Source of the DNA: Pelagimonas varians
GTDB lineage: Bacteria; Pseudomonadota; Alphaproteobacteria; Rhodobacterales; Rhodobacteraceae
Length of the DNA: 64,000 nucleotides
Assembly (NCBI RefSeq): GCF_003208435.1
Contig: NZ_QKMF01000009.1
Location: 62,001 to 126,000, forward strand
Direction: 5' to 3'
The notes under the pieces were generated by a model, which did not search any database, was not told the origin of the DNA, and saw only the letters and a list, made by a program, of their open reading frames with translations. Positions 31,777-62,756 of the stretch are shown piece after piece. The translations under genes were made by a program, and so were the position numbers. Position 1 is the stretch's first letter. Every line of letters starts with the position of its first letter.

Positions 31777-32607
31777 TTAACGGCGTGCCCCCCACGATGC
31801 AGATGCGTGTTTTCGTGTATAAAATTCGCCCATCAAGCCGATCATGATAAAAACAATCGAGAAATACAGCGCGTACTCCCAGCTAGAATTTCGCGGATTG
31901 TAATCCAAAAACGCAAATCCGCGCGATTGGTCGATACAGTGAAACAGCGGGTTCCAATCGAACATCTTCAACATGAACGGCGGCAGGGTGTTGGCCACAA
32001 ACATCTTGCCTGACGCAATCATATTGGCCCGCTGATAGACGGTCGAGATAATCCCCACCGGTGTTGGAAACCACGGCTTTGCGGCCAAAATTACCATGCC
32101 AATCGCCGCTCCGGAAAACCAGGCCAGCAAAACCATACCCATGCAGCCAACCGGATCATAAATCTCCATCAAGACGCCGGGTGCAAAGGCCACATCATAG
32201 ACAAACAAAACCGCAGCCAGCGACATAAGCTGAATATAGAGCGTGCTCACCATCGCCGCCGCAATCGCGATCGCCGTGTTCATCGGCGCATGTTGCATCA
32301 TCGGGCTGGCCGGCCCTTCGGAAGACGACACAGCGCCCAATGTCTTGGAATGGGTCATATACAAAAAGATTCCGGTCATGATGTAGATCATGAAATCACC
32401 GCGGAGCGCCGTCCCCCGAAGTCCCAAAATCTGGAACATGACGTAAAATGCCATCACAAAAACAATAGTTTGCAACATATTCATCAAGATCGCAATCATG
32501 GCGTTCCCATGCGATTTTCGCACTGACCGGACCGAATTATGGTAGATCAGCTCGGCTATATAAATTGCCGATCCAAAGCGAGATCGGGGGGCGGAAATCT
32601 GAAACAT
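31777..32607 (-). CDS. ABC-2 type polysaccharide export permease (KpsM-like)
   Basis: 276 residues with six predicted membrane helices in the pattern of KpsM/RfbA-type permeases; the motif DWNPLFHCIDQSRGFAF near residue 220 is the characteristic NPL(F/V)H...E/QxxR region before the last helix. It would export a finished glycan chain to the periplasm with an ATPase partner. No KpsT-type ATPase adjoins it, so the partner must be elsewhere. It is divergent from cysQ and faces the glycan gene cluster. Alternative: a lipid or drug exporter, which the motif makes less likely. Confidence 0.8.
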   Translation of the reverse strand: MFQISAPRSRFGSAIYIAELIYHNSVRSVRKSHGNAMIAILMNMLQTIVFVMAFYVMFQILGLRGTALRGDFMIYIMTGIFLYMTHSKTLGAVSSSEGPASPMMQHAPMNTAIAIAAAMVSTLYIQLMSLAAVLFVYDVAFAPGVLMEIYDPVGCMGMVLLAWFSGAAIGMVILAAKPWFPTPVGIISTVYQRANMIASGKMFVANTLPPFMLKMFDWNPLFHCIDQSRGFAFLDYNPRNSSWEYALYFSIVFIMIGLMGEFYTRKHASASWGARR

Positions 32608-32734
32608 AGGGACGCTGCTCCGATACGCGGCCTGAAATTTACGGCATTCTTGCCGTTTTTGTTATTTGCCATCATAAGGCGCAAAGACTTTCAAATCAAT
32701 GAAACCGCGCTGGCCCGCGCGGAGGAGTATTTTT

Positions 32735-33532
32735 ATGGACTATTCAGAGCTCACAACAGTGATCCGCAAGCTAGCACTCGAAGCCGGCGACAAGATCATG
32801 GAAATTTACAACGCGGACGATTTTGATGTGAAGGTGAAGTCCGATGACAGCCCGGTGACCGAAGCGGATGAAGCCGCTGACGCCCTTATCTCAGCCGGTC
32901 TGCGGGCCGCATTTCCAGACGTAGCGCTGGTGACTGAAGAGCAGTCGGATAGCCACGGTATCGACGCAAAAACCTTTTTAATTGTTGACCCGCTGGACGG
33001 CACCAAAGAATTCATCAAACGCCGCGGTGATTTCACTGTAAACATCGCTTTGGTTGAAGATGGCACTCCAACACGCGGCGTCGTCTATGCCCCCGCCAAA
33101 AACCGGATGTTCTTTACCCTAGCCGACGGTTCGACCGTCGAAGAATTGGGCCCGTTTGACAAAAACACCGTTGGCGAAACCAAACCGCTTAGCGTGAGCA
33201 CACCGGACAACGCGGCTTTGATGCTGGTTGCGTCCAAATCGCACCGCGATCAGGCAACCGAAGACTATATTGCCAAATACGCCACCAAGGATTCCAAAAG
33301 CGCCGGCTCGTCTCTCAAGTTTTGCTTGGTTGCCACAGGCGAAGCGGATTTGTACCCCCGCGTTGGCCGCACCATGGAGTGGGACACAGCAGCAGGTCAG
33401 GCCGTGTTGCATGGCGCTGGTGGCAAAGTTGTTCGCTATGACGATCATTCGCCGCTGGTCTATGGCAAAGCCGATTTCGCCAACCCGTTTTTCATCGCCT
33501 ATGCACCGGGTGTTGATCTGAAAGAAGCCTGA
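32735..33532 (+). CDS. cysQ: 3'(2'),5'-bisphosphate nucleotidase CysQ
   Basis: Hydrolyses PAP (3'-phosphoadenosine 5'-phosphate) to AMP and phosphate, removing the inhibitory product of PAPS-using sulfotransferases. 265 residues of the inositol monophosphatase fold with metal-binding motifs DSPVTEADEAAD near residue 35, EE near 70, DPLDGTKEF near 88 and MEWDTAAGQAVL near 208. The start at 32735 has GGAGGA about eight bases upstream. Three bases separate it from the glycosyltransferase gene. Its place at the head of a cluster with sulfotransferases supports a role in glycan sulfation as well as sulfur assimilation. Confidence 0.93.
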   Translation: MDYSELTTVIRKLALEAGDKIMEIYNADDFDVKVKSDDSPVTEADEAADALISAGLRAAFPDVALVTEEQSDSHGIDAKTFLIVDPLDGTKEFIKRRGDFTVNIALVEDGTPTRGVVYAPAKNRMFFTLADGSTVEELGPFDKNTVGETKPLSVSTPDNAALMLVASKSHRDQATEDYIAKYATKDSKSAGSSLKFCLVATGEADLYPRVGRTMEWDTAAGQAVLHGAGGKVVRYDDHSPLVYGKADFANPFFIAYAPGVDLKEA

Positions 33533-33535
33533 TCT

Positions 33536-34768
33536 ATGGCCCAGCCGGTTAGCATTGTCGTTGTCAGCCGGGGTCGCCCGATGGCACTGGCGCAGTGTTT
33601 AACCGGTTTGGGGCAACTTGATTACCCATGCTTTGAAATAATCGTAGTGGCCTGTCCTGACGGGCAGGCCATCGTGCGCGCACACCCCAACGTGGACCAA
33701 ATCAAATTGGTGCCGTTTGACGAACCAAATATCTCTGTCGCGCGCAACTTGGGTGTCGCTCAGGCGGCAGGTGATATCGTTGCCTTCATTGATGACGATG
33801 CGGTGCCAGAACCGCTTTGGCTCCAGCATTTAACCGGCCCATTTGATCAAAGTGCGATTGCGGCGGCAGGTGGTTATGTCATCGGTAGAAACGGCATTTC
33901 GTTTCAATGGACTGCCCGCGAGGTTTACCCAAACGGTGCATCTGAGCCACTTGAGTTACCGATATCCGATGCCCCCGCTGTGTTGCCGCCCGCGCCAGGA
34001 AGAGCCATCAAGACTGAAGGCACCAACATGGCTTTTCGACGCGATATTCTTTGCCAAATTGGTGGCTTCGATCCGGGGTTTCATTTCTACTTAGATGAAA
34101 CCGACTTGAACATGCGTCTGGGCCGGTCCGGATACCAAACAGCTATTGTTCCTCTCGCACAGGTCCACCACGGTTTTGCAGAAAGCGATCGCCGCGAAGC
34201 GTCGCGTGTTCCAAAAGATTTGACCCAGATAGGGGCCTCACAGCGTTTGTTTTTGCGCAAACACTGCCCCGCGCAAGATCAAGACCAGGCTTGGACAAAG
34301 TTTTGCGAAGATCAAAGACTGCGCCTGTTCCGCTTCGCCAAACAGCGAAAACTCGGGGCCGCGCGCATTTCCGAACTATTGCGGGGGCTTCAAGATGGCG
34401 GCAAAGAAGGACTATGCCGTGATATTGGTGACTTGCCGCCGATTCCGCACAGCGACGCCGGATTTTGCCCCTACCCAGGACGCCCGAAAGCCCCTCGCAA
34501 GGTCTTATCCGGGCGGTTTTGGCAAGCCCGCCGCCTTCGGCGCGAAGCCACCGAATTGGCGCGTACAGGTGCCATTGTTAGCATGTTTATTTTCAGCCCG
34601 ACATTGCGCTACCACAAAGTCACGTTCACGCATGCCGGTGTTTGGGAACAAACAGGCGGGCGGTTCGGGCGCAGCGATCGAACCCAAAGCCTTTGGCGAT
34701 ACAGGAAATTTTCGGAACGTGTTCGTGAGGAAACAGCAAGGACATCCTTGGTTCGCGGCACCCAATAG
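33536..34768 (+). CDS. Glycosyltransferase family 2 protein
   Basis: Cytoplasmic, GT-A fold, 410 residues. The N-terminal catalytic region has VSIVVVSRGRP at the start, the NISVARNLGVAQAAGDIVAF segment near 64, the nucleotide-sugar/metal motif IDDDAVPEP near 84, and ETDLNMRLGRSGY near 190. The C-terminal third is basic, has no match I recognise, and may bind the acceptor or a partner. Donor and acceptor sugars cannot be told. Cotranscribed with cysQ; the 144 bases after it probably carry a promoter for galU. Confidence 0.85.
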   Translation: MAQPVSIVVVSRGRPMALAQCLTGLGQLDYPCFEIIVVACPDGQAIVRAHPNVDQIKLVPFDEPNISVARNLGVAQAAGDIVAFIDDDAVPEPLWLQHLTGPFDQSAIAAAGGYVIGRNGISFQWTAREVYPNGASEPLELPISDAPAVLPPAPGRAIKTEGTNMAFRRDILCQIGGFDPGFHFYLDETDLNMRLGRSGYQTAIVPLAQVHHGFAESDRREASRVPKDLTQIGASQRLFLRKHCPAQDQDQAWTKFCEDQRLRLFRFAKQRKLGAARISELLRGLQDGGKEGLCRDIGDLPPIPHSDAGFCPYPGRPKAPRKVLSGRFWQARRLRREATELARTGAIVSMFIFSPTLRYHKVTFTHAGVWEQTGGRFGRSDRTQSLWRYRKFSERVREETARTSLVRGTQ

Positions 34769-34912
34769 TCGAATGTGCTTATTAAGAAGCATTCCTACAA
34801 CGAAATTGAAACAATCTTAAGGTAAGCAATCGCACACATCACAATGTGGTGGCCCCTATTAGCCATCAGTGCAATAACCTGACCCAAAGAATTTAGTAGT
34901 AGGAGTAGACCG

Positions 34913-35806
34913 ATGCCTAAAAAGGTCACGAAGGCAATTTTTCCCGTCGCAGGCATGGGAACACGCTTTTTGCCCGCAACCAAGTCGGTTCCCAAAGAAA
35001 TTATGACTTTGGTGGATCGTCCGCTTGTTCAATACGCGATTGACGAAGCGCGCGCAGCCGGGATCAAAGAGTTTATCTTTGTGACGTCCCGCGGCAAGGG
35101 GGCACTTGAAGACTATTTTGACCACGCCCCTCAGCTCGAACAGGAGCTGCGCAAAAAAGGCAAAGACGAACTGTTGGCCACTTTGAAATCCACAAATATG
35201 GATTCAGGGGATATTGCGTACATCCGCCAGCACCGCGCCCTTGGTCTGGGTCATGCTGTTTGGTGCGCACGCCGCTTGATTCACAACGAACCTTTTGCCG
35301 TGATCCTGCCGGACGATGTTATCGCAGCAGAAAAGCCGTGCCTGCAACAGATGGTCGAAGCTTACGAAGAAACCGGTGGCAATATGGTTGCTGCCATGGA
35401 AGTGCCTGATGAACAGACTTCCAGCTACGGCATGCTCGATATTGCCGAAGACATGGGAAGCAAGGTCAAGATCAAGGGCATGGTCGAAAAACCGCCTGCC
35501 GGTCAATCGCCTTCCAACCTCGCTGTTATTGGCCGCTACATCCTGTCAGCCAATGTGTTTGGCCATCTGAACCGGATCAAGTCCGGCGCTGGCGGTGAAA
35601 TTCAACTAACCGACGCGATTGCGCGTGAGATTTCCGACGGCGAAGGTGTTTATGGTTACCGGTTCCGCGGACAACGTTTTGACTGCGGATCCAAGAGCGG
35701 CTTCTTGCAGGCGACCGTGGCCTTTGGCCTGTCGCGACCGGATCTTCGCGACGACTTGGAGGGGTATTTGACCCAACTCATGGCGTCTCGTAAAGCGGCG
35801 GAATAA
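34913..35806 (+). CDS. galU: UTP-glucose-1-phosphate uridylyltransferase
   Basis: Makes UDP-glucose from UTP and glucose-1-phosphate for surface glycans. 297 residues with the nucleotide-binding N-terminus VAGMGTRFLPATKSVPKE, the LGLGHAVWCARRLI segment near 105, and VEKPPAGQSPSNLAVIGRY near 193. TAGGAG lies 8 bases before the ATG. galE starts 4 bases downstream, so UDP-glucose and UDP-galactose supply are coupled. Confidence 0.96.
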   Translation: MPKKVTKAIFPVAGMGTRFLPATKSVPKEIMTLVDRPLVQYAIDEARAAGIKEFIFVTSRGKGALEDYFDHAPQLEQELRKKGKDELLATLKSTNMDSGDIAYIRQHRALGLGHAVWCARRLIHNEPFAVILPDDVIAAEKPCLQQMVEAYEETGGNMVAAMEVPDEQTSSYGMLDIAEDMGSKVKIKGMVEKPPAGQSPSNLAVIGRYILSANVFGHLNRIKSGAGGEIQLTDAIAREISDGEGVYGYRFRGQRFDCGSKSGFLQATVAFGLSRPDLRDDLEGYLTQLMASRKAAE

Positions 35807-35810
35807 CTGC

Positions 35811-36794
35811 ATGCCTCATGTATTGGTAACCGGCGGCGCTGGCTATATTGGTAGCCACGCTTGTAAAGCTCTAAAAGCGGCGGGTTATACGCCCGTCACT
35901 TTGGACAACCTGTGCACTGGCTGGAAAGACGCGGTCAAATTCGGGCCGTTTGAACAAGGTGATTTGACAGATCGTGCCCGTCTGGATGCGGTTTTCGCCA
36001 AGTGGCAACCGGTGGCCGTCATGCATTTCGCGGCGCTTAGTCAAGTTGGCGAAGCGATGGCGAAACCCGGCATGTATTGGCGCAACAATGTCGAAGGCTC
36101 ACTAACCTTGATCGAAGCGGCTGTTGCCGCGGGCTGCCTGAACTTTGTTTTTTCATCGACCTGTGCCACTTATGGTGAACATGACAACGTCGTTTTGGAC
36201 GAAAACACCCCTCAAGAGCCGTTGAACGCCTATGGCGCGTCAAAACGTGCTGTCGAGAATATTTTGCGTGATTTTGAAGCGGCCTATGGGTTGCGTCATG
36301 TGATTTTTCGCTACTTTAACGTCGCGGGTGCAGACCCTGACGGCGAAGTCGGGGAACACCACCGCCCTGAAACGCATCTCATTCCCGTTATGCTTGAAGC
36401 GATTGACGGCACAAGGCCAGCTTTAACCATTCACGGCACCGATTATGATACCCCTGATGGCACCTGCATTCGAGACTACGTTCATGTTTGCGATCTGGTG
36501 GATGCGCATGTCTTGGGATTGAAGTGGTTGCACGATGACAAGGGGAGCCATGTCTTCAACTTGGGCACAGGCAGCGGCTTTTCGGTCCGCGAAGTCATTG
36601 ACTCCGCAGGCTCCGTTACCAACCTCGAGGTGCCCTGCTCTGAAGGACCACGCCGTGCCGGCGACGCAACCAAGCTGGTTTCCGGCTCTACCCGCGCGGG
36701 CGAAGAACTGGGTTGGCAACCTCACAGATCCACCATGCCGCAGATGATTGCTGACGCATGGCGTTGGCATCGAAATGGTCATTACGACGGGTAA
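35811..36794 (+). CDS. galE: UDP-glucose 4-epimerase
   Basis: Interconverts UDP-glucose and UDP-galactose. 327 residues; the Rossmann motif VTGGAGYIGSHAC is at residue 5, the catalytic serine/threonine is in FSSTCATYG near 120, the YxxxK pair is in YGASK near 144, and the substrate loop RYFNVAGADPDGEVGE is near 165. The stop overlaps the next gene's proposed start by about 20 bases. Typical length. Confidence 0.96.
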   Translation: MPHVLVTGGAGYIGSHACKALKAAGYTPVTLDNLCTGWKDAVKFGPFEQGDLTDRARLDAVFAKWQPVAVMHFAALSQVGEAMAKPGMYWRNNVEGSLTLIEAAVAAGCLNFVFSSTCATYGEHDNVVLDENTPQEPLNAYGASKRAVENILRDFEAAYGLRHVIFRYFNVAGADPDGEVGEHHRPETHLIPVMLEAIDGTRPALTIHGTDYDTPDGTCIRDYVHVCDLVDAHVLGLKWLHDDKGSHVFNLGTGSGFSVREVIDSAGSVTNLEVPCSEGPRRAGDATKLVSGSTRAGEELGWQPHRSTMPQMIADAWRWHRNGHYDG

Positions 36795-37959
36795 CCCTCC
36801 AGCGCGGCTTCTGGATCTAACCAGATTGATTAGCCGCGCGGGGCACCCCATGACCGGGGTGGATCGCGTTGAGTTCGCTTATCTGGAACATTTGCTTGAG
36901 CACCCTTCGCTTTGGGGCTTGGTCCGCACCTCCATCGGGTATGTCCTTCTGGATCATGCAGGATGCAGAACAGTTCACACACGCCTGCAAGACAATCTCT
37001 GGGGGCCCACTGATCGATTGGCACGGCTTCAAAGAGGTCGGCATCCGATTCGACTACGTGCAGAAGCTGACCTGCGCAGGATTTGCCGCGCCCGCTGTTT
37101 GCCAATCCGACTGTCTTCTATGTTGCGACGGCACCTGCCCATGGGCGTACACTATATAAACACCGGCCATTCGAACCTGACAAATCGGGTCCTCTCTGCG
37201 CTCACCCTTTGCAAGGCCCATGTCGCGGTCTTTGTTCACGATACAATTCCACTGGATTTCCCTCAATATCAGAGGCCTGAAACATTTGCCTCGTTTCGCT
37301 TGTTCCTTGACCGCGTTGTGGCGCGTGCCGATGTGATCTTGTGCAATTCGCATCAAACGCTTGCGGATATGAAAAGACATGCCAAAACGGATTTGCCGCC
37401 AAGCGCAGTTGCCCATTTGGGCGTGAATTTACCGACGCTTGGGGTTGCACCTGACGGCCCTTGGACACCGCCATATTTCGTCACTTTGGGGACAATCGAA
37501 CCGCGCAAAAACCACGCTCTCCTGTTGGATATTTGGGGCAAAATTCCTGACGCTCACTTGTTGATTTGTGGTCATCGCGGCTGGGAAAACCACGCCGTTT
37601 TTGAACGGCTCGATGCAGCGCCTTCGCGGGTTCATGAGCTCAGCGAGCTGCCAGACGATCAGCTTTTTGCCCTGATCAAAGGTGCGGCAGGGCTGCTGTT
37701 TCCCAGTTTTGCCGAAGGGTACGGGTTGCCACCGCTTGAAGCCGCCGCATTGGGGGTTCCGGTCTTGTGTAATGATCTGCCCATTTACCGTGAAGTCCTT
37801 GGCGATATTCCCGTTTACGCAGACGCTCGGGACCGCTATCTTTGGGAAACAACGATAAAACAGATGGCACAAGCGCATCAAACAGGCACAGGCAATACTC
37901 TGGACTACACTGCTCCCACATGGGACGACCATTTCAAGATTGTTTTAACTTTGATTTGA
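36775..37959 (+). CDS. Glycosyltransferase family 1/4 protein (GT-B fold)
   Basis: 394 residues. The C-terminal half has GT4 hallmarks: VTLGTIEPRKNHALLLDIW near 240 and the nucleotide-sugar segment PSFAEGYGLPPLEAAALGVPVLCND near 313, whose E-x7-E pair contacts the donor. The N-terminal half starts with RLLDLTRLISRAGHPMTGVDRVEF, a beginning common in polysaccharide GT4 enzymes. The ATG at 36775 overlaps galE by 20 bases; a TTG nine codons earlier is less likely. Donor is unknown, possibly UDP-glucose or UDP-galactose given its neighbours. Confidence 0.85.
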   Translation: MVITTGNPPARLLDLTRLISRAGHPMTGVDRVEFAYLEHLLEHPSLWGLVRTSIGYVLLDHAGCRTVHTRLQDNLWGPTDRLARLQRGRHPIRLRAEADLRRICRARCLPIRLSSMLRRHLPMGVHYINTGHSNLTNRVLSALTLCKAHVAVFVHDTIPLDFPQYQRPETFASFRLFLDRVVARADVILCNSHQTLADMKRHAKTDLPPSAVAHLGVNLPTLGVAPDGPWTPPYFVTLGTIEPRKNHALLLDIWGKIPDAHLLICGHRGWENHAVFERLDAAPSRVHELSELPDDQLFALIKGAAGLLFPSFAEGYGLPPLEAAALGVPVLCNDLPIYREVLGDIPVYADARDRYLWETTIKQMAQAHQTGTGNTLDYTAPTWDDHFKIVLTLI

Positions 37960-38012
37960 TAGCTACCACGGTAGAAAAAGGTCGGGTAACCGGCTTGTAA
38001 AAGGGCACATAA

Positions 38013-39023
38013 TTGGGCGCATGGCAGTCATATCAGCTTCGGGTTCAACGGAAACGCTGGCGTATTCGTGCATTCCGAAAGCGGCGGGATTTGCGCCCTG
38101 TCGCGGACAGAACAGCCGACATCAAACCGTCAGATATTTTGTTGTTTTCGACCCAGCGCAACGAAGGTGTCCGCCTGCCGTGGTTCTTGAAACATTACCG
38201 CGATATGGGCGTGAACCATTTCTTTTTTGTCGATAACGACAGCACAGATGGATCCCTGAATTACCTTGCCAAACAACCTGATGTATCCGTTTGGGCGACG
38301 CAATCCAGCTACAAAAGATCACGCTTCGGGGTTGATTGGCTCAATTGGTTGGCAATGAAATACGCCCATGATCACTGGGCGTTGACCGTCGATCCGGACG
38401 AGCTGTTCTTGTACCCGTTTTGTGACACACGGCCTCTACGTGCATTGACCGATTGGCTGGATGCCTCTTCGATAAAAAGCTTTAGCGCGATGTTGTTGGA
38501 TATGTATCCTAAGGGGCGGATCGACGCCCAGACTTACAGTCCGGGACAAAATCCACTCGAAATTGCATCTTGGTTCGATTCCGGAAATTACACCGTTCAG
38601 AAGAATAAAACCTACGGAAACCTCTGGATTCAAGGCGGACCGCGTGCGCGCGTGTTCTTTAAAGATGAACCAAAGTTAGCCCCCGCTTTGAACAAAATTC
38701 CGCTGGTCAAATGGAACAGGCAATATGCCTATGTCAGCTCCACCCACAATTTGCTGCCGCGTGGCCTCAACCAAGTTTACGATGAGTGGGGCGGTGAAAA
38801 GGCCAGTGGTATCTTGCTTCACACCAAATTCCTCAACACCTTTACGGACAAGGCCGCAGAGGAACTGGAGCGCAACCAACACTATGGGGCCAGCCGCGAA
38901 TACGTCGCCTATGCCGAAGGGGTCAAAGACAACCCGGAACTCTGGTGCAAGTGGTCGGAAAAATACATTAACTGGCGCCAGCTTGAGATTTTGGGTCTGA
39001 TGTCTAAGGGGAACTGGGCATGA
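38013..39023 (+). CDS. Glycosyltransferase family 2 (DUF4/Glyco_tranf_2_4-like), TTG start
   Basis: 336 residues. The catalytic region has LLFSTQRNEGVRLPWFLKHY near 43, the FFVDNDSTDGS donor motif near 70, and DPDELFLYP near 126 as the likely metal-binding DxD-type site. The rest is a family-specific C-terminal half. No in-frame ATG precedes the conserved region; the only fitting start is TTG at 38013 with an AAAGGG stretch upstream. Its stop overlaps the next start (ATGA). The sugar used is unknown. Confidence 0.82.
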   Translation: MGAWQSYQLRVQRKRWRIRAFRKRRDLRPVADRTADIKPSDILLFSTQRNEGVRLPWFLKHYRDMGVNHFFFVDNDSTDGSLNYLAKQPDVSVWATQSSYKRSRFGVDWLNWLAMKYAHDHWALTVDPDELFLYPFCDTRPLRALTDWLDASSIKSFSAMLLDMYPKGRIDAQTYSPGQNPLEIASWFDSGNYTVQKNKTYGNLWIQGGPRARVFFKDEPKLAPALNKIPLVKWNRQYAYVSSTHNLLPRGLNQVYDEWGGEKASGILLHTKFLNTFTDKAAEELERNQHYGASREYVAYAEGVKDNPELWCKWSEKYINWRQLEILGLMSKGNWA

Positions 39024-40720
39024 GTGTCGGGATTGTCATGCTGGTGCATACCGCATTGGACCGCGCCGAAGACGTTGCACGGCATTGGTCACGCGGCGGA
39101 TGTCCTGTTGTAATCCATGTCGACAAGGTTGTGCCTCGTAAGACCTATGATGCGTTTGTCGCGCGCCTGACCGACACACCCAACGTGATGTTTTCCAAGC
39201 GCCATCGCTGTGAATGGGGGACATGGGGTTTGGTCGCCGCCAGTCAGGATGCCTCGGAATTGCTGCTTCGCAATTTTGATCAGGTGCGGCATGTTTATCT
39301 ATCTTCCGGATCATGCTTACCGCTACGTCCTGTCGAAGAATTGGTAGACTACCTCAACCAACGACCTCGCACAGATTTCATCGAAAGCGCGACCACCGCT
39401 GACGTCCCTTGGACGGTCGGCGGGCTCGATCAAGAGCGCTTTACTATGCATTTCCCGTTCAGCTGGCGAAATCAGCGCTATCTATTTGATAGGTTGGTAG
39501 AATTGCAACGTGCCATAGGTTTCAAACGCCGCATGCCGCGCGGTTTGGTTCCCCATATGGGCAGCCAATGGTGGTGCCTTACACGCCAAACCTTGAGCGC
39601 GATATTGCAAGATCCGGAACGCGATCGCTATGACCGCTACTTTGAAAACGTCTGGATTCCGGACGAAAGCTATTTTCAGACCTTGGCACGTAAATACTCC
39701 ACAAATATTGAAAGCCGGTCTTTGACCCTTTCCAAGTTCGATTTCCAAGGCAAACCGCATATTTTCTATGACGACCATCTGCAACTGCTGCGCCGGTCAG
39801 ATTGTTTTGTGGCGCGCAAAATTTGGCCTCACGCCGAACGATTGTATGGTGCGTTTTTGACGGATGCGAACGGTGCAATGTCACACCAGGAGCCAAATCC
39901 GGGTAAAATTGATCGTATTTTTGCCAAGGCTGTTGATCGCCGGACACGCGGACGATCCGGTTTATATATGCAAAGTCGATACCCGAATGCCGGGTGGGAA
40001 AATGGCGTAACTGCCGGCCAGTATTCGGTCTTCCAAGGGTTTTCCGATCTCTTTCAAGATTTCGAAGGCTGGCTTGGCCGTGCGACAGGTGCACAAGTCC
40101 ATGGTCATCTGTTCGCCCCTGATCGGGCCGAGTTTTCGGGCGGCCAATCCATTCTAAACGGTGCCCTTTCCGACAATGCCAAGCTGCGGGATTCAAACCC
40201 AAAAGGATTTTTGACGAACCTGCTATGGAATACCCGCGGCGAACGTCAGTGCTTTCAATACGGTCCGCATGACACTCCCAAGATCAATTGGCATATGGCC
40301 GTTGATCCCAACGCTCAAATTAGCGTGATCTCAGGTGCTTGGGCGGTTCCCTTGTTCAAATCCAACGCCAATTTCGCCGAAATTCGCACCCAAGCGGCTC
40401 GGCTGCAAAAAATCGAAAGCAAGATATTGGATGTGCTACGCGCCCCTGATGTCAAAGCCCGAGTGCGCATTTGGTCCATGGCCGACTTTATCGAAGCCCC
40501 CATGGAACCGCTGCAAGTCATTATCGACGAAATTGGTCAAAAAGGCCTAAGGCGGCTGGCCGAAGCCCCCCGCCTCGAAGATCTAGCCGGCTTTGGACAG
40601 TTTCTGCAAAACCTGAAAAATCAAGGCATGCACCCCTATCTGATGGGCGACTTCCCTGTTGACCCTGCACCGCGTAATCTGCCCGACAGCCACCGTAAAC
40701 CGTATCTCATCAAAAAATAG
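39020..40720 (+). CDS. Core-2/I-branching-type glycosyltransferase (GT14 family) with long C-terminal domain
   Basis: 566 residues. About 1-260 resemble GT14 branching beta-1,6-N-acetylglucosaminyltransferases: VGIVMLVHTALDRAEDVARH at the start, VYLSSGSCLPLRPVEEL near 94, MGSQWWCLTRQTL near 178 and the acidic WIPDESYFQTL near 210. The last ~290 residues form a domain that I connect only to roseobacter proteins of this type (FAPDRAEFSGGQSI, NTRGERQCFQYGPHD). Translationally coupled to the glycosyltransferase before it, and followed 9 bases later by a sulfotransferase. A second GT14-like gene lies at 57623. Confidence 0.82.
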   Translation: MSVGIVMLVHTALDRAEDVARHWSRGGCPVVIHVDKVVPRKTYDAFVARLTDTPNVMFSKRHRCEWGTWGLVAASQDASELLLRNFDQVRHVYLSSGSCLPLRPVEELVDYLNQRPRTDFIESATTADVPWTVGGLDQERFTMHFPFSWRNQRYLFDRLVELQRAIGFKRRMPRGLVPHMGSQWWCLTRQTLSAILQDPERDRYDRYFENVWIPDESYFQTLARKYSTNIESRSLTLSKFDFQGKPHIFYDDHLQLLRRSDCFVARKIWPHAERLYGAFLTDANGAMSHQEPNPGKIDRIFAKAVDRRTRGRSGLYMQSRYPNAGWENGVTAGQYSVFQGFSDLFQDFEGWLGRATGAQVHGHLFAPDRAEFSGGQSILNGALSDNAKLRDSNPKGFLTNLLWNTRGERQCFQYGPHDTPKINWHMAVDPNAQISVISGAWAVPLFKSNANFAEIRTQAARLQKIESKILDVLRAPDVKARVRIWSMADFIEAPMEPLQVIIDEIGQKGLRRLAEAPRLEDLAGFGQFLQNLKNQGMHPYLMGDFPVDPAPRNLPDSHRKPYLIKK

Positions 40721-40729
40721 GTCCAATGA

Positions 40730-42160
40730 ATGTCTGACCGTTTCGACTGTTTTGTCGTATTTGCAGAAATGCGCACCGGGTCCAATTTCCTTGAGGCCAA
40801 TCTGAACGCATTTGATGGCATCACCTGCCACGGCGAAGCGTTTAATCCGCACTTCATCGGCTATCCAAATTCCGAAGATATTCTGGGCATCACCCAGCAA
40901 GAACGCGATGCCGATCCGATGCGTTTGCTTGGACAAATCCGCAAAACAACACCCGGTGGGATTGGCGGTTTTCGCTATTTCCACGACCATGACCCGCGCC
41001 TTTTGGACGACTTGCTGCAAGATCCAAAGATTGGTAAAATCGTTCTGACCCGCAACCCTGTTGACAGTTACGTCAGCTGGAAGATTGCTCAGGCAACAGG
41101 CCAGTGGAAACTGACCAATGTAAAACGGCGCAAAGATGGGCAGGCGCAATTCGATGCGGCTGAGTTCGAACAACATTTGGCGGATCTGCAAGCCTTCCAA
41201 ATCCAGATATTGAACACCTTACAACGCAGTGCGCAGACCGCATTTTATGTCTCCTATGAAGACTTGCAAGACGTCGATATTATGAACGGATTGGCGCGGT
41301 GGCTTGGCGGTTCTGGGCAACTATCCAGCCTAAACACCGCTTTGAAACGCCAAAATCCCCAACCCATCGCTGAAAAAGTTGCGAATTTCGGAGAGATGGA
41401 ACACGCTTTGGCGCGGCTCGATGGGTTTAACCTAACCCGCACCCCAAATTTTGAGCCCCGTCGCGGGCCTGTTGTTCCGTCCTATGTTGCGGCCGCCAAA
41501 ACGCCACTGCTGTATATGCCAATCCGCTCCGGTCCTGAAACCGCCGTACATCAATGGCTCTGTGCCCTGGATGACGTGTCAGGCGAAGCCCTTGAACAAG
41601 ACTTCAAACAAAACACCTTACGTACTTGGAAGCGGCAAAGACCCGGCCATCGCAGTTTTACTGTCATTCGCCATCCGCTTGCCCGCGCGCACGAAGCCTT
41701 TTGCTCCAAAATCCTAAGCACCAAAAAAGGTAGCTTCGCTGGCATCCGAAAAACCCTGCGCCGCGCCCACAACCTTCCCATTCCCGAGGGCGAACCCAAT
41801 GACGACTATTCCGTAGAATCCCACCGAGAGGCGTTTACGACCTATCTGTCATGGGTCAAAGCCAACTTGGCCGGGCAAACTGCGGTTCGCGTTGATGGCC
41901 ACTGGGCGACTCAGGCGCAATGTATCCAAGGCATGTCAGAGTTCACGTTGCCGGATATGATTGTCCGAGAAGATGAAATGGCTCTCTATTTGCCCGCACT
42001 TGCTATGCAAGTTGGTCATCCATCACCGCCAGAACCGGTTGCCGTGCCGACCACCGCCCCTTTTTCATTGGCTCAAATATACGACGACAGAATCGAAGCA
42101 TTGGCGCGGGAAGCTTATTTGCGAGATTACACTATGTTCGGGTTTGATAGCTGGGCGTAA
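40730..42160 (+). CDS. Two-domain sulfotransferase (Stf0-like domain plus second sulfotransferase-like domain)
   Basis: 476 residues. Domain 1 (about 1-250) has a PAPS 5'-phosphosulfate loop in FAEMRTGSNFLEANL near residue 10 and a 3'-phosphate region VLTRNPVDSYVSWKIAQ near 105, as in Stf0 sulfotransferases. Domain 2 (about 262-476) repeats the layout in weaker form: LLYMPIRSGPETAVHQWL near 265, then FTVIRHPLARAHEAFCSKIL near 307, and an ending YTMFGFDSW that matches the DFALFKYDF end of the sulfotransferase at 59343. The first loop of domain 2 lacks the usual lysine/serine pattern, so it may be inactive or only bind substrate. Ending the cysQ-led cluster, it likely sulfates the glycan. Confidence 0.8.
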   Translation: MSDRFDCFVVFAEMRTGSNFLEANLNAFDGITCHGEAFNPHFIGYPNSEDILGITQQERDADPMRLLGQIRKTTPGGIGGFRYFHDHDPRLLDDLLQDPKIGKIVLTRNPVDSYVSWKIAQATGQWKLTNVKRRKDGQAQFDAAEFEQHLADLQAFQIQILNTLQRSAQTAFYVSYEDLQDVDIMNGLARWLGGSGQLSSLNTALKRQNPQPIAEKVANFGEMEHALARLDGFNLTRTPNFEPRRGPVVPSYVAAAKTPLLYMPIRSGPETAVHQWLCALDDVSGEALEQDFKQNTLRTWKRQRPGHRSFTVIRHPLARAHEAFCSKILSTKKGSFAGIRKTLRRAHNLPIPEGEPNDDYSVESHREAFTTYLSWVKANLAGQTAVRVDGHWATQAQCIQGMSEFTLPDMIVREDEMALYLPALAMQVGHPSPPEPVAVPTTAPFSLAQIYDDRIEALAREAYLRDYTMFGFDSWA

Positions 42161-47032: not shown

Positions 47033-47722
47033 TTGACACTGCATATTCGCCAGCCGCTGCCAACGGTGAAAATTGATGCCCTGATCGACGAAGCTTTGTT
47101 CGCAAAGTCGACTGCCGCAACTTATCGCAATACGTTCAAGCGTATTATGGATGTTGCGCTGGTTTTGATTGGTGCCGTACCAGCTCTCACCATTACTTTG
47201 GTCTTTGCCATGCTAGTGGCGCTGGATGGAAAGTCACCCTTTTACATGCAAAAACGTATTGGTCGGAATGGCCGGGTGTTTCGGATGTGGAAACTGCGCA
47301 GCATGGTCTTAAACGCAGACAAAGCGCTAGCCGATCATCTTGAAACTGATCCCGCAGCACGGGTTGAATGGGACCGCTTTCAAAAGCTGTCTCACGACCC
47401 TCGCATCACCAAGATCGGCCGTTTGATCCGCAAGACCTCGATTGATGAGCTGCCGCAACTGTGGAATGTTCTTCGCGGTGATATGTCATTGGTTGGCCCG
47501 CGCCCAATGATGCCCTGCCAACAAGGGATCTACCCTGGCACCGCTTACTATGCCTTACGCCCCGGCATCACCGGGCTCTGGCAAACATCAGTTCGCAACG
47601 AATCCAGCTTTTCCGAGCGCGCAGGTTTTGACACTGCCTATCTTCGTAAGCTGTCCTTTACGACTGATGTAAAGACCATCTTGCGGACCTTTAAGGTCGT
47701 GTTACGCGGCACAGGCAGTTAA
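47033..47722 (+). CDS. Undecaprenyl-phosphate sugar phosphotransferase (ExoY/WbaP-type), TTG start
   Basis: Membrane enzyme that starts polysaccharide synthesis by moving a sugar-1-phosphate to undecaprenyl phosphate. 229 residues with one membrane helix at about 40-63, the [18 protein letters not shown] segment near 80, and the catalytic/C-terminal motifs [24 protein letters not shown] near 140-163. This is the short ExoY form, without an N-terminal multi-helix part. The start is TTG at 47033-47035, supported by a perfect AGGAGG six bases upstream. Monocistronic, ended by the terminator at 47753. Confidence 0.9.
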
Positions 47723-57622: not shown

Positions 57623-59200
57623 TCAATCCGCATATAGATGATCTAGATCGACAATCTCTTGGGCTACGTCCTGTGGTACTGACAAAAACGTAGCAACCGC
57701 CGCCGCGTTGACCTGCCTCGGATCGCTTTCGCGGATGCGCAAAAGGTTGTCAAAATTGGCATCTTTGATTTGATCGCTTTCATGCATCATATCATTGCGC
57801 ACAGTTGGCAAAAGACGCTGCAACGTCTCTGGTGGAGTACGTTCCCCTGCCAAACCAACCCGCATTGCGTGGCCGATCAAGTACTCATCGGAGAACAAGC
57901 AGTCGACTTCCAAAATTCGGGTTCGGGATCGATCGTTGGCAAAATCAGAAATCAAATCAAGATCTTCCGGATCCATGCAAACGATCAGTCGATCCGTCTC
58001 ATAATAGTCAAACAACATTCGCATCAAGGCACGACGATGTCGGTGCCGTTTGCCCATGGTCGATTGGATGCCGCCCAAATCTGGCAAAACACAGCTTTCT
58101 TCATTGAACAGGTAATCAATACACGGAATGTCAGTGCTCTGCCGGAAACGCTCTACCAATCGTTTCGCCACATGCCATTTCTTGCTGACCACTATCAGCA
58201 ACTCGCGCTCCCGGCCCAACGAGCTTTCTTTTTCCCAGAACCGAGACCCAAAGCGCCGTCCCATGCGACCCTTTTCCGTCAGGAATTTATGGAGTGACCG
58301 GCCTTCGTTCGAAATCTTGAACCGCTGCCCCTCAGAGGAATATAAAACCCCCAGCCGACGCCGCAACTCCATCGCTTCTGGGCTGATTTTTCGGGCAAAC
58401 AAAAAGTCTTGGCTCAGCAACAAGTCATAGTGATCGTTGTAAAAAACGATCGGCAACCCGTAGTCGCTGAACATCAAAAAGGTCAGCGTCCGGTTCTCAA
58501 TTTCCTGCTCGGGAACCAAATGCCGCACGAGCGTCTGAAAAAAGGTCTCGTCCGGAATCCACGTCGACCGGAAAAACTGCATCACGTCCTTGCGCCTTTT
58601 GGCAAAGTCCAAAATCCATTCAACAGTGCGGCGCCGCAGACACCACCACTGCGACCCGATCATAACCTCCAGATCTTGTGGAACTTTACGGGTCATACCT
58701 AAACTTTTTTGCACTTGGAACATTGCGTAGAACCGGCGTTTTTGCGTTCGCTCATTGAACCAATGGCGGTAAATCAACCGCTCTTCCTTCCAGCCCGTCT
58801 TTATCCAGTCGGATTGGAAATAGTCATAGCTTTCAATGTAGTCACAATCCCTACGGTCCAGAAACTCATGCGCGTATTCAGCTGACTTGATTGCCATGCA
58901 ATCGCCGGACAGCATGTAAAAATGCGTGGCGCGCGGGAATGCGTCCAAGGCGGATTGCACAGCCTGAATAGTCGCTTCGACCAGGCTCCATTCCCCCCAA
59001 CCACATTTTATGCGTTTGCGGGCAAATGTGACATTGGGATTGTTGGACAAGGCCGCTTTGATTTTCTTGAAATCATCGAGATCGGAACGGGCATCATAGT
59101 GGATCGACATGTAGTCGCCCACCGCCGTAAGGCTTTGCGCCTGCTTGATGATCGCGTCCGGGTCTTTATGACACAACAGGATGAAGGCGATTTTTGCCAT
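57623..59200 (-). CDS. GT14/Branch-type glycosyltransferase (DUF5928-like), second copy
   Basis: 525 residues. The N-terminal ~270 residues parallel the GT14 enzyme at 39020: IAFILLCHKDPDAIIKQAQ start, HFYMLSGDCMAIKSAEY near 93, MIGSQWWCLRRRTVEW near 182 and STWIPDETFFQTLV near 210. The C-terminal ~250 residues differ, opening RERELLIVVSKKWHVAKRL near 330 with a kinase-like or nucleotide-binding look (LLIVVSKK) that I cannot identify. Divergent from a sulfotransferase, with only 142 bases between the two starts. The acceptor is probably a surface glycan. Confidence 0.8.
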   Translation of the reverse strand: MAKIAFILLCHKDPDAIIKQAQSLTAVGDYMSIHYDARSDLDDFKKIKAALSNNPNVTFARKRIKCGWGEWSLVEATIQAVQSALDAFPRATHFYMLSGDCMAIKSAEYAHEFLDRRDCDYIESYDYFQSDWIKTGWKEERLIYRHWFNERTQKRRFYAMFQVQKSLGMTRKVPQDLEVMIGSQWWCLRRRTVEWILDFAKRRKDVMQFFRSTWIPDETFFQTLVRHLVPEQEIENRTLTFLMFSDYGLPIVFYNDHYDLLLSQDFLFARKISPEAMELRRRLGVLYSSEGQRFKISNEGRSLHKFLTEKGRMGRRFGSRFWEKESSLGRERELLIVVSKKWHVAKRLVERFRQSTDIPCIDYLFNEESCVLPDLGGIQSTMGKRHRHRRALMRMLFDYYETDRLIVCMDPEDLDLISDFANDRSRTRILEVDCLFSDEYLIGHAMRVGLAGERTPPETLQRLLPTVRNDMMHESDQIKDANFDNLLRIRESDPRQVNAAAVATFLSVPQDVAQEIVDLDHLYAD

Positions 59201-59342
59201 TTAGGAAACCATCTGCCCTATTTTTGCCTGATTGTTTATATTGATAGACATGAACAAGCGTTGAAGAAAGCCGCATATTTTGCTTTTTTGGGCGCAAATG
59301 GTGCCAAATACAACAGGGCGCAAAAAGCAGGAGGCGGCAGGC

Positions 59343-60161
59343 ATGGGTTTTCCTGGAACCTGGATGACCGAAAGTGAAAGCATGGTGTATCGGGTTGTGC
59401 CGAAATGCGCCTGCTCGACCATTGGTCAAATCATGTACTATTCTGATCATGGTGCGTTTTTTGACGGCGACATCCATGATGCCAGCCAAGGGCTGCACAA
59501 ATGGGCGCGCGAAGACAGCCAACCGGCGATCAAGGCAAACGTGAAAACGCACACCAGCTATGCCTTTACTTGTGTGCGCAATCCTTACACGCGTATCCTC
59601 TCCAGCTTCTTTGACAAGATTTGCGGAATTCAGCGCAACGGCCGCCGATATCGCGGCAACCTTGTCCCACTGTTGATCCAAAAATACGGGATCGAAGTGG
59701 GGGGAGACGATGGCAAGCAAGAGTTTGACCAGATCAAATCCTTTCGGCGCTTTTTGCTCTTCACCCGTGACACCATTCGTTGGCGGCGACCTATGGACCC
59801 AGACATCCACTGGTCGGCCATGTCTGGCCATGTCAGCACGTTCATTGTCAACGGCGGACGCTACAACAACATCTTTTGGACGGAAAAGTTCAACGAAGGC
59901 ATGCAAGGCGTTCTGGATTCGATCAACACACCGCATGACGTTGATTTGGCCAATATCCCGCGTTTCAATGAATCCGAAGGCCACGGACCAAAACGCGCGC
60001 ATCCGGTCGAAGACTATTTCGACGATCTATCGATGCATCTCATCAAGGAAATCTTCCATCGCGATTTTGCACTGTTCAAATATGATTTCGACAATCCGGG
60101 CAACAAAATGCCCATAGGCGAGATTGATCTGGACGAAGTGCATGCCAAATTGGGCGACTAG
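59343..60161 (+). CDS. Sulfotransferase family 2 protein
   Basis: 272 residues. The PAPS 5'-phosphosulfate loop is in YRVVPKCACSTIGQIM near residue 16 and the 3'-phosphate site in AFTCVRNPYTRILSSFFDKI near 77, the layout of Golgi-type carbohydrate sulfotransferases (HNK-1 class). Near the end HRDFALFKYDF matches the usual C-terminal signature. GGAGG lies 12-16 bases before the ATG at 59343, rather far; the frame is open upstream. Likely moves sulfate from PAPS to a glycan made by its divergent GT14 neighbour. Confidence 0.83.
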   Translation: MGFPGTWMTESESMVYRVVPKCACSTIGQIMYYSDHGAFFDGDIHDASQGLHKWAREDSQPAIKANVKTHTSYAFTCVRNPYTRILSSFFDKICGIQRNGRRYRGNLVPLLIQKYGIEVGGDDGKQEFDQIKSFRRFLLFTRDTIRWRRPMDPDIHWSAMSGHVSTFIVNGGRYNNIFWTEKFNEGMQGVLDSINTPHDVDLANIPRFNESEGHGPKRAHPVEDYFDDLSMHLIKEIFHRDFALFKYDFDNPGNKMPIGEIDLDEVHAKLGD

Positions 60162-61866: not shown

Positions 61867-62756
61867 GCCAAAACATCGCCCAACAGTCCGGCTCCGGTCT
61901 AAGATCCCGTGCCCAAATGGAAGCCAGCCACTTTCCGGCGCTGCTGGCACGCGCCGAAACCTTGGCAGGTACGGTGCTTTTGGGGGAACACGGGCGCAGA
62001 CGCGCTGGGGCCGGGGATGATTTTTGGCAATACCGGCCTTTGCAGCCGGGCGACAACTACCGCCACATTGACTGGCGCAGATCAGCCAAGGGCGATGATC
62101 AATTTATCAGTGAACGCGAATGGCAGGTCGCCCAGAGTGTTCAGCTGTGGGTCGATCCCGGCGCATCCATGCGCTTTTCCTCCTCGCGGGATCTACCAAC
62201 CAAAGCCGACCGTGCCCGACTGATCGCTCTGGCAATTGCCGTTCTTCTTATTCGGGGCGGTGAACGTGTTGGCCTGACCGGCTGGGATCTGCCACCGCGC
62301 CGCGGCGAAGCCCAAATGCTTCGGCTGGCGGAAATGTTCGGCCGCGATGACGACTCTGACTATGCCGAACCCGAGGCACGCGGCATGCTGCCCCATGCAA
62401 AGGCGCTATTTGTTTCGGATTTTCTGTCCGATATTGCCCCGATCGAAGCCGCTTTGGCCAAGGCCGCTGACAGAAATGTACGCGGCACTTTGGTGCAGGT
62501 GCTTGATCCGGCAGAAGAAGCCTTTCCGTTTCAAGGGCGGACCATTTTCGAAAGCGTCGGGAAATCCGTGGCGTATGAAACGCTCAAAGCAGGCGATTTG
62601 CGGGATCGCTATTTGTCGCGTCTGGCAGAGCGCAAGGACCGCCTTGAAACCTTATGCCGGCAAACCGGCTGGCAGTTTTATTGCCATCACACAAACCAAA
62701 GTGCGCAATCCGCACTTCTTTGGCTTTATCGCGCATTGGATGGGGGCCACCCATGA
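61863..62756 (+). CDS. DUF58 domain protein (GTG start)
   Basis: 297 residues, with the DUF58 core DDFWQYRPLQPGDNYRHIDWRRSAKGDQ type near residue 55 and a von Willebrand-like fold afterwards. The start is GTG at 61863-61865 inside GTGA, a 4-base overlap with the moxR stop. DUF58 proteins nearly always accompany MoxR ATPases. It is followed by the BatA-like gene with the same coupling (ATGA). Confidence 0.92.
   Translation: MSQNIAQQSGSGLRSRAQMEASHFPALLARAETLAGTVLLGEHGRRRAGAGDDFWQYRPLQPGDNYRHIDWRRSAKGDDQFISEREWQVAQSVQLWVDPGASMRFSSSRDLPTKADRARLIALAIAVLLIRGGERVGLTGWDLPPRRGEAQMLRLAEMFGRDDDSDYAEPEARGMLPHAKALFVSDFLSDIAPIEAALAKAADRNVRGTLVQVLDPAEEAFPFQGRTIFESVGKSVAYETLKAGDLRDRYLSRLAERKDRLETLCRQTGWQFYCHHTNQSAQSALLWLYRALDGGHP

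Follow-up and report, generated by a model that had tools for sequence, protein, structure and literature searches.

What is made by a locus that sets a polysaccharide export permease beside cysQ, galU, galE, several glycosyltransferases and a sulfotransferase, and which of these genes define it? The question is raised by positions 31777-42160 of a 64,000-nucleotide stretch of the Pelagimonas varians genome (4.93 Mb in 56 contigs); this stretch, hereafter the window, is G000:C9:62001-126000, that is, positions 62,001 to 126,000 of contig NZ_QKMF01000009.1. An initial annotation named nine genes here and read them as serving to assemble, branch, sulfate and export a surface glycan. All nine are present in the order given (Table 1), and the proposed function stands as a well-supported prediction, carried by a conserved gene frame and by the co-occurrence of a glycosyltransferase of family 14 (GT14) with the sulfotransferase. 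We conclude, with a probability of about 0.7, that the locus is an assembly, branching and sulfation module of a Kps/Vex-type cell-surface polysaccharide in most sampled members of its family, the Rhodobacteraceae.

Distribution was assessed in 149 same-family genomes (Rhodobacteraceae in the broad sense, the window's own included), with families assigned by Pfam and NCBIfam models. The sulfotransferase is encoded in 122 of these genomes and DUF5927, the domain fused to the GT14 protein, in 121; a class-wide sample of 289 genomes yielded DUF5927 in four, all within the window's family. Of the 121 other positive genomes, 115 contributed the neighbourhood of their sulfotransferase gene; the remaining six, whose matches were fragmentary or weak, were excluded. 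Ninety-six of the 115 neighbourhoods are contiguous from KpsM through the sulfotransferase and form the basis of the gene-order counts. All 96 share one frame, in which KpsM and CysQ lie side by side on opposite strands with a gap of less than 400 bp, and Glyco_tranf_2_4, GT14 and the sulfotransferase follow, in this order, on the strand of cysQ. Since it recurs in every contiguous locus, the arrangement is beyond chance. GalU is present in 92 of the 96, a GT2 (family 2) glycosyltransferase in 60, a GT4 (family 4) glycosyltransferase in 58 and GalE in 48; GT2 and GT4 co-vary (58 loci have both, 36 lack both and two have GT2 alone). In 98/115 loci, as in the window, ptsN is the first recognised gene past the sulfotransferase, mostly with hpf and lptB/A/C behind it. 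A named genome collection yielded at least 574 confirmed relatives of the sulfotransferase, of which the 80 best were retained; 62 of their loci span KpsM to the sulfotransferase, with the same frame in 62/62. The titles of these 80 name Rhodobacteraceae, Paracoccaceae, Rhodobacterales or genera such as Salipiger, Leisingera, Sulfitobacter, Roseovarius, Shimia and Thalassovita, with three exceptions, all metagenome-assembled genomes (MAGs): an Alphaproteobacteria MAG (L164), a Pseudomonadota MAG (L214) and a MAG titled Cytophagaceae (L172). The last, with a sulfotransferase of 75% identity under a Bacteroidota title, is probably mislabelled or mis-binned. A recent horizontal island was also considered and ruled out, the G+C content of the locus (0.51-0.56) being like that of its surroundings and its chromosomal position constant.

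KpsM, GT14 and the sulfotransferase share one pattern of presence and absence across nearly all genomes. Of the 149, 120 have both sulfotransferase and GT14 and 26 lack both (sulfotransferase only, two; GT14 only, one); the corresponding counts for sulfotransferase and KpsM are 120 and 23 (sulfotransferase only, two; KpsM only, four), and in the 121 genomes that are at least 95% complete they become 101 and 19 (none and one). On a FastTree phylogeny of 92 loci, six sulfotransferase-negative rows could be placed, five of them without KpsM, GT14 and sulfotransferase and one (G057) without the sulfotransferase only. These six rows need six changes, so they look like independent events, gain and loss not being formally separable.

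Table 1. Positions and identities of the genes in the Pelagimonas varians locus (window coordinates).
Feature	Position	Strand	Remarks
KpsM/VexB-like ABC-2 polysaccharide export permease, 276 aa	31777..32607	-	Divergent from cysQ; NCBIfam KpsM and VexB below cutoff
CysQ, 3'(2'),5'-bisphosphate (PAP) nucleotidase	32735..33532 (open reading frame listed from 32699)	+	TIGR01331
GT2 glycosyltransferase, accessory	33536..34768	+	Glyco_tranf_2_3, E 5e-15
GalU, UTP-glucose-1-phosphate uridylyltransferase	34913..35806	+	TIGR01099
GalE, UDP-glucose 4-epimerase	35811..36794	+	TIGR01179
GT4 glycosyltransferase, accessory	36775..37959, candidate ATG start (open reading frame listed from TTG 36748)	+	Glycos_transf_1, E 6.5e-15
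Glyco_tranf_2_4 glycosyltransferase, constant module part	38013..39023	+	PF13704, E 7.1e-33
GT14 (Core-2/I-branching type) fused to DUF5927	39020..40720	+	Branch (PF02485), E 4e-18; DUF5927, E 6.1e-163
Two-domain sulfotransferase: N-terminal NodH/Stf0-like PAPS domain, C-terminal Sulfotransfer_2-like	40730..42160	+	

CysQ, GalU and GalE had been named correctly, as all three pass curated NCBIfam cutoffs (266.6 bits against 228.8, 331.8 against 326.8 and 408.1 against 262.3). The start of cysQ is probably 32735 and not 32699, because a ribosome-binding-like GGAGGAG (32721-32727) precedes the ATG at 32735. The DPLDGT metal-binding motif of CysQ is intact, with D97, P98, D100, G101 and T102 (numbered from 32699) 100% conserved in 94 sequences. 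Predicted promoters (10, shuffled mean 7.9) and terminators (19, shuffled mean 15.7) are near shuffled levels.

The initial annotation had placed cysQ at the head of the sulfation module and expected it to co-occur with GT14 and the sulfotransferase. The expectation holds for the latter two and fails for cysQ: CysQ matches (E 1e-40 or better) accompany the sulfotransferase in 119 genomes, occur without it in 23 and are missing with it in four (sulfotransferase only, three), so that 23 of the 27 sulfotransferase-negative genomes retain a match, some just 36-50% identical. Twenty cysQ neighbourhoods were compared, 18 from these 27 sulfotransferase-negative genomes and two from genomes with a weak or partial match (G074, G148). 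In G051, G063, G067, G125 and G130, cysQ and galU, sometimes with galE, lead into ptsN, hpf and lptB, and the fetched stretches gave no match to the permease, Glyco_tranf_2_4, GT14 or sulfotransferase. In G094, G109 and G029 the module is likewise missing while cysQ and galU are retained, though ptsN is not found in the stretch, and in more distant negative genomes cysQ lies in other surroundings; GalU, too, is retained in several module-negative loci. As a gene that remains where KpsM, GT14 and the sulfotransferase are all missing, cysQ is a conserved neighbour and not the mark of the module, and it was rejected as its defining gene. A variant locus in G148 (L279, G148:C3:670000-689500) keeps KpsM, CysQ, GT2, GalU and GalE, shows no Glyco_tranf_2_4 or GT14 match in the roughly 9-10 kb that come next, and its match to the sulfotransferase is confined to the C-terminal part (query residues 192-475).

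This persistence also bears on the proposal of a cysQ-led sulfation operon, in which cysQ is dedicated to the locus, having been recruited against inhibition by 3'-phosphoadenosine 5'-phosphate (PAP), a view partly compatible with the preferred one. The adjacency of cysQ to KpsM in all contiguous loci favours it, as do the two cysteine pairs in the sequence of CysH, which we take to mark an adenosine 5'-phosphosulfate (APS) reductase; sulfotransferases could then be a main source of PAP, which also arises in the synthesis of acyl carrier protein. However, cysQ keeps the same place in module-negative genomes, and the NCBIfam models that CysH passes call it a phosphoadenylyl-sulfate reductase, the APS model (188.7 bits, cutoff 235.3) falling below cutoff along with the equivalog for 3'-phosphoadenosine 5'-phosphosulfate (PAPS; 159.9 bits, cutoff 254.2). 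The curated models thus do not tell APS from PAPS reduction, and we hold a dedicated cysQ to be rather improbable.

The sulfotransferase had been described as a two-domain protein. For the C-terminal domain this is borne out above the Pfam cutoff (Sulfotransfer_2, 26.3 bits, cutoff 22), which no other domain of the protein reaches; the N-terminal stretch stays below it (Sulfotransfer_3, 18.1 bits, cutoff 27) and was recognised by profile and fold. By profile it matches PDB 9vki, 'LPS sulfotransferase NodH' (E 6.7e-10; LPS, lipopolysaccharide). The structural model (mean predicted local distance difference test score, pLDDT, 84.7; predicted template modelling score 0.53), whose matches span mainly residues 3-242, aligns best with Stf0 (1tex; Z 12.8, root-mean-square deviation, rmsd, 4.3, 200 aligned), and heparan sulfate 3-O-sulfotransferases tie with Stf0 at Z about 12. 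Residues R15, G17, S18, N19, R108 and S116 of the PAPS site are 100% conserved in 115 sequences; we assume that they make up the 5'-phosphosulfate loop and the 3'-phosphate site. The N-terminal domain is accordingly a predicted PAPS-dependent domain of the NodH/Stf0 type that would transfer sulfate to a saccharide. In the C-terminal domain, H315, P316 and R319 are 99-100% conserved in the same sequences but R266 just 48%, and the 5' loop is degenerate. Because this loop is not conserved, activity of both domains was rejected; judging from its residues, the C-terminal domain more likely binds the acceptor or has lost catalysis.

The relatives of the N-terminal domain leave room for a sulfotransferase that acts on a small molecule, a lipid or a nodulation-factor-like oligosaccharide, with the glycosyltransferases serving an unsulfated polysaccharide, as NodH- and Stf0-type enzymes act on oligosaccharides and trehalose. 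A plasmid search with the protein points the same way, its matches being rhizobial and other proteins of 23-29% identity, named just sulfotransferase or unannotated (eight records, none covering 80% of the query). Against such a substrate stand the joint presence and absence of sulfotransferase, GT14 and KpsM in nearly all genomes and the spacing between the GT14 and sulfotransferase genes, which is at most 95 bp among the 60 loci listed. We consider it very improbable.

PAPS for a sulfated polysaccharide could come from a bifunctional ATP sulfurylase/APS kinase encoded in the window's genome (1030 bits, cutoff 669). In the 149 genomes APS kinase and sulfotransferase occur together in 115 and are both missing from seven, with seven genomes having the sulfotransferase only and 20 the kinase only (Fisher p 0.004, with kinship uncorrected). 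The open reading frame of the bifunctional enzyme (L158:1417-3441; G000:C5, near 252362-252817) has an N-terminal extension, residues 1-88, which scores 61.9 bits (E 4.7e-17, cutoff 88) with TIGR04176, the model of a MarR family EPS-associated regulator (EPS, exopolysaccharide). A regulator of exopolysaccharide may here be fused to PAPS synthesis. In some relatives the corresponding match falls in an open frame of about 690-720 aa, so that the extension may recur.

Of the glycosyltransferases first named, GT2, GT4 and GT14 were confirmed by Pfam; what had been called a second GT2 is the Glyco_tranf_2_4 protein at 38013. The model of the GT14-DUF5927 protein (mean pLDDT 72.4, poor at 236-319) has structural matches mainly over residues 1-395, DUF5927 lying after about residue 320. 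It aligns with C2GnT-L (Z 20.1, rmsd 2.8, 244 aligned) and with human xylosyltransferase 1, XylT1 (Z 17.9), to which the match at sequence level is weak (E 0.006, best stretch 0.13). The pair D215-E216 is 100% conserved in 110 sequences, and E216 is presumably the catalytic Glu of the family. With a Branch domain, a predicted C2GnT-like GT-A fold and an invariant E216, the protein has the features of a GT14 member. A second GT14 protein, with Branch and DUF5928 domains, is encoded at 57623-60161 on the minus strand and is 35% identical to that of the locus over the glycosyltransferase domain; it is divergent from an adjacent gene for a single-domain Sulfotransfer_2 protein (E 9.1e-36), making a second branching-enzyme/sulfotransferase pair in the window.

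The permease gene is present as first described, and its resemblance to KpsM and VexB is faint: no Pfam model matches it at E 0.01, and it is 21% identical to a KpsM-like protein of contig C25. An exported polysaccharide remains the likely product, and its export would also need genes elsewhere in the genome, of the KpsT/KpsE and KpsC/KpsD/KpsS-like kinds. Contig C18 of the window's genome encodes two Capsule_synth (KpsC/KpsS-type) proteins of 680 and 430 aa, both above the Pfam cutoff. The smaller matches the KpsS model (E 1.8e-66, below its cutoff) and the larger is a candidate KpsC by its length and domain repeat; a VexA/KpsD-like protein clusters with them. The genome thus encodes predicted KpsC/KpsS-type transferases for a linker of 3-deoxy-D-manno-oct-2-ulosonic acid (Kdo). 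On contig C25 a KpsE-family protein (E 2.9e-58) adjoins an export ATPase, a predicted pair of polysaccharide-export ATPase and KpsE/BexC/CtrB-family protein for which all scores lie below curated cutoffs. With the C25 KpsT as query, the window's genome gave two matches, and 122/122 sulfotransferase-positive genomes encode a KpsT-like ATPase at E 1e-30 or better. The type that is 36-39% identical to the C25 KpsT has the same larger protein directly after it in 20/20 fetched neighbourhoods of relatives. In L240, the sole neighbourhood scanned, this larger protein belongs to the BexC/CtrB/KpsE family (E 2.4e-50), which we take to be the co-polymerases of capsule exporters, and the KpsT scores best with VexC (E 7.6e-31). 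In the relatives fetched, the KpsT-KpsE pair is encoded at a distance from the module; it may work with the KpsM of the locus.

Two further observations concern polysaccharide genes outside the locus. The C25 region (L157, G000:C25:22000-41000) combines a KpsM-KpsE-KpsT exporter with a Sulfotransfer_3/Stf0-family sulfotransferase and a 2013-aa open reading frame resembling a multi-domain glycosyltransferase, a second and perhaps mobile capsule system; the contig looks plasmid-like by eye (replication- and ParA/ParB-like genes). In the window, 5 kb downstream of the locus, 47033-47722 encodes a WbaP-like undecaprenyl-phosphate sugar phosphotransferase (TIGR03022, 251 bits, cutoff 403), and in a few relatives (L035, L040, L041) the locus has a WbaP-like match at its far end, too.

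Several observations weigh against a Kps/Vex-exported, sulfated polysaccharide. The permease matches the KpsM and VexB models weakly (E 4.2e-8 and 4.7e-8, ~33 bits with cutoffs of ~300), and no model score for KpsT, KpsE, KpsD or KpsS reaches its curated cutoff. Nor do the kps-type genes sit together as they do in classical capsule clusters: KpsM is at the locus, KpsC/D/S-like genes are on C18 and KpsM/E/T are on C25. Of the 27 genomes without the sulfotransferase, 11 nevertheless have a KpsT-like ATPase, and the tie between APS kinase and the module is weak, the kinase being unmatched in seven positive genomes. G057 keeps everything from KpsM to GT14 with no sulfotransferase before ptsN, and sulfate is therefore not strictly required. 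The Fisher p-values for co-occurrence ignore kinship among genomes, and independent-pairs tests on the tree gave a median p of 0.0625 (5 and 6 pairs), 0.05 not being reached. Finally, the position beside lptB/A/C and often kdsB fits LPS as well.

On that last point rests the view that the module modifies LPS, the permease moving an O-antigen-like chain and the sulfotransferase sulfating LPS. Besides the neighbouring lptB, lptA and lptC, KdsB (CMP-Kdo synthetase, recognised by eye from its translation) was detected in 64/115 loci, and gap analysis places it after CysQ in 57 loci; it was looked for in the window and is absent there. Its frequent presence counts in favour of the capsule-type polysaccharide as well. 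The sole solved profile relative of the N-terminal domain, moreover, is named an LPS sulfotransferase. However, where the module is absent, cysQ, galU, lptBAC and often kdsB are still in place, and the LPS-gene neighbourhood therefore says little. The best scores of the permease with KpsM and VexB, those of the L240 KpsT and its neighbour with capsule-exporter families, and the Capsule_synth proteins in the genome also speak against LPS as the product, which we regard as unlikely.

For the preferred capsule-type polysaccharide the following route is proposed. GalU and GalE would supply UDP-glucose and UDP-galactose, from which Glyco_tranf_2_4 and GT14-DUF5927 would build and branch a chain in the cytoplasm, with the extra GT2 and GT4 taking part in most loci. 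The N-terminal domain of the sulfotransferase would add sulfate from PAPS made by the fused ATP sulfurylase/APS kinase encoded elsewhere, while the neighbouring CysQ would clear PAP. KpsM, assisted by KpsT and KpsE from elsewhere in the genome, would export the chain on a Kdo linker that KpsC/KpsS had made, and the chain would pass the outer membrane via the KpsD-like protein. More tentatively, and with doubt prevailing, most of the family may possess a single sulfated capsule, conserved and inherited vertically, with a core made by three linked and otherwise undescribed enzymes, Glyco_tranf_2_4, GT14-DUF5927 and the two-domain sulfotransferase, GT14 starting or branching a sulfated side chain in a manner resembling the animal xylosyl- or core-2 transferases. 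On this view the family would be a large source of bacterial sulfated polysaccharide that has gone unrecognised.

Rhodobacteraceae are abundant in the sea. If the proposed function is correct, most members of this family share a sulfated capsule that lacks description in the literature searched, and this capsule would be a candidate for the receptor that phages and gene transfer agents use, would contribute to algal attachment and would provide a bacterial source of sulfated polysaccharide. DUF5927 would gain a context as part of a GT14 branching enzyme bound to sulfation. The natural absences of the whole module, or of the sulfotransferase alone, offer ready comparisons.

No description of this locus was found in the literature searched (openly licensed papers, titles and abstract starts), and DUF5927 and DUF5928 are named in no openly licensed paper searched. 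Among known enzymes, core 2 beta-1,6-GlcNAc transferase (C2GnT) and XylT1 (both GT14) share the fold and the invariant DE pair with the GT14 protein, which differs in having 16-19% identity to them in structural alignments and a C-terminal DUF5927. NodH and Stf0 (9vki, 1tex) share PAPS motifs and fold with the N-terminal sulfotransferase domain, but their chains have about 240-264 residues, whereas the locus protein carries a second, fused sulfotransferase-like domain. Among known polysaccharides of the same family, the surface capsule of Rhodobacter capsulatus is the receptor of its gene transfer agent, RcGTA, and involves rcc01081-rcc01086 and wzc/wzb/wza, an export set different from KpsM/T/E; in the main text of that paper, as available, 'sulf' occurs once, in kanamycin sulfate (PMC10218006). 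Salipiger mucosus produces an exopolysaccharide of glucose, mannose, galactose and fucose with 0.9% sulfate, according to the available part of its description (PMC2953402). The sulfotransferase is encoded in other Salipiger species (L170, L173, L175, L178 and L180 among the best 80 relatives). By analogy we count this sulfated, galactose-containing product of a relative as suggestive of a sulfated polysaccharide at the locus. Vibrio sp. KMM 8419 has a sulfated capsular polysaccharide cluster with a sulfotransferase, and the likeness is by description only, kpsM being mentioned once in the part of the paper available (PMC11641403). Closest is the sulfated capsular polysaccharide cluster of Cobetia marina KMM 1449, for which the accessible portion of the source lists KpsE/T/M/D export, KpsS/C Kdo priming, PAPS genes including cysQ, glycosyltransferases and a sulfotransferase; that cluster differs in that its roughly 70 genes, which include rhamnose/mannose genes and cysDNC, are spread over a few regions of a gammaproteobacterial genome (PMC11766843). 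The Rhodobacteraceae locus is, in contrast, a compact module with its ATPase gene elsewhere, a GT14-DUF5927 protein and a two-domain sulfotransferase. Since Kps-exported sulfated capsules with cysQ and sulfotransferases are known and this locus is undescribed in the literature searched, it appears to be a new variant of a known principle.

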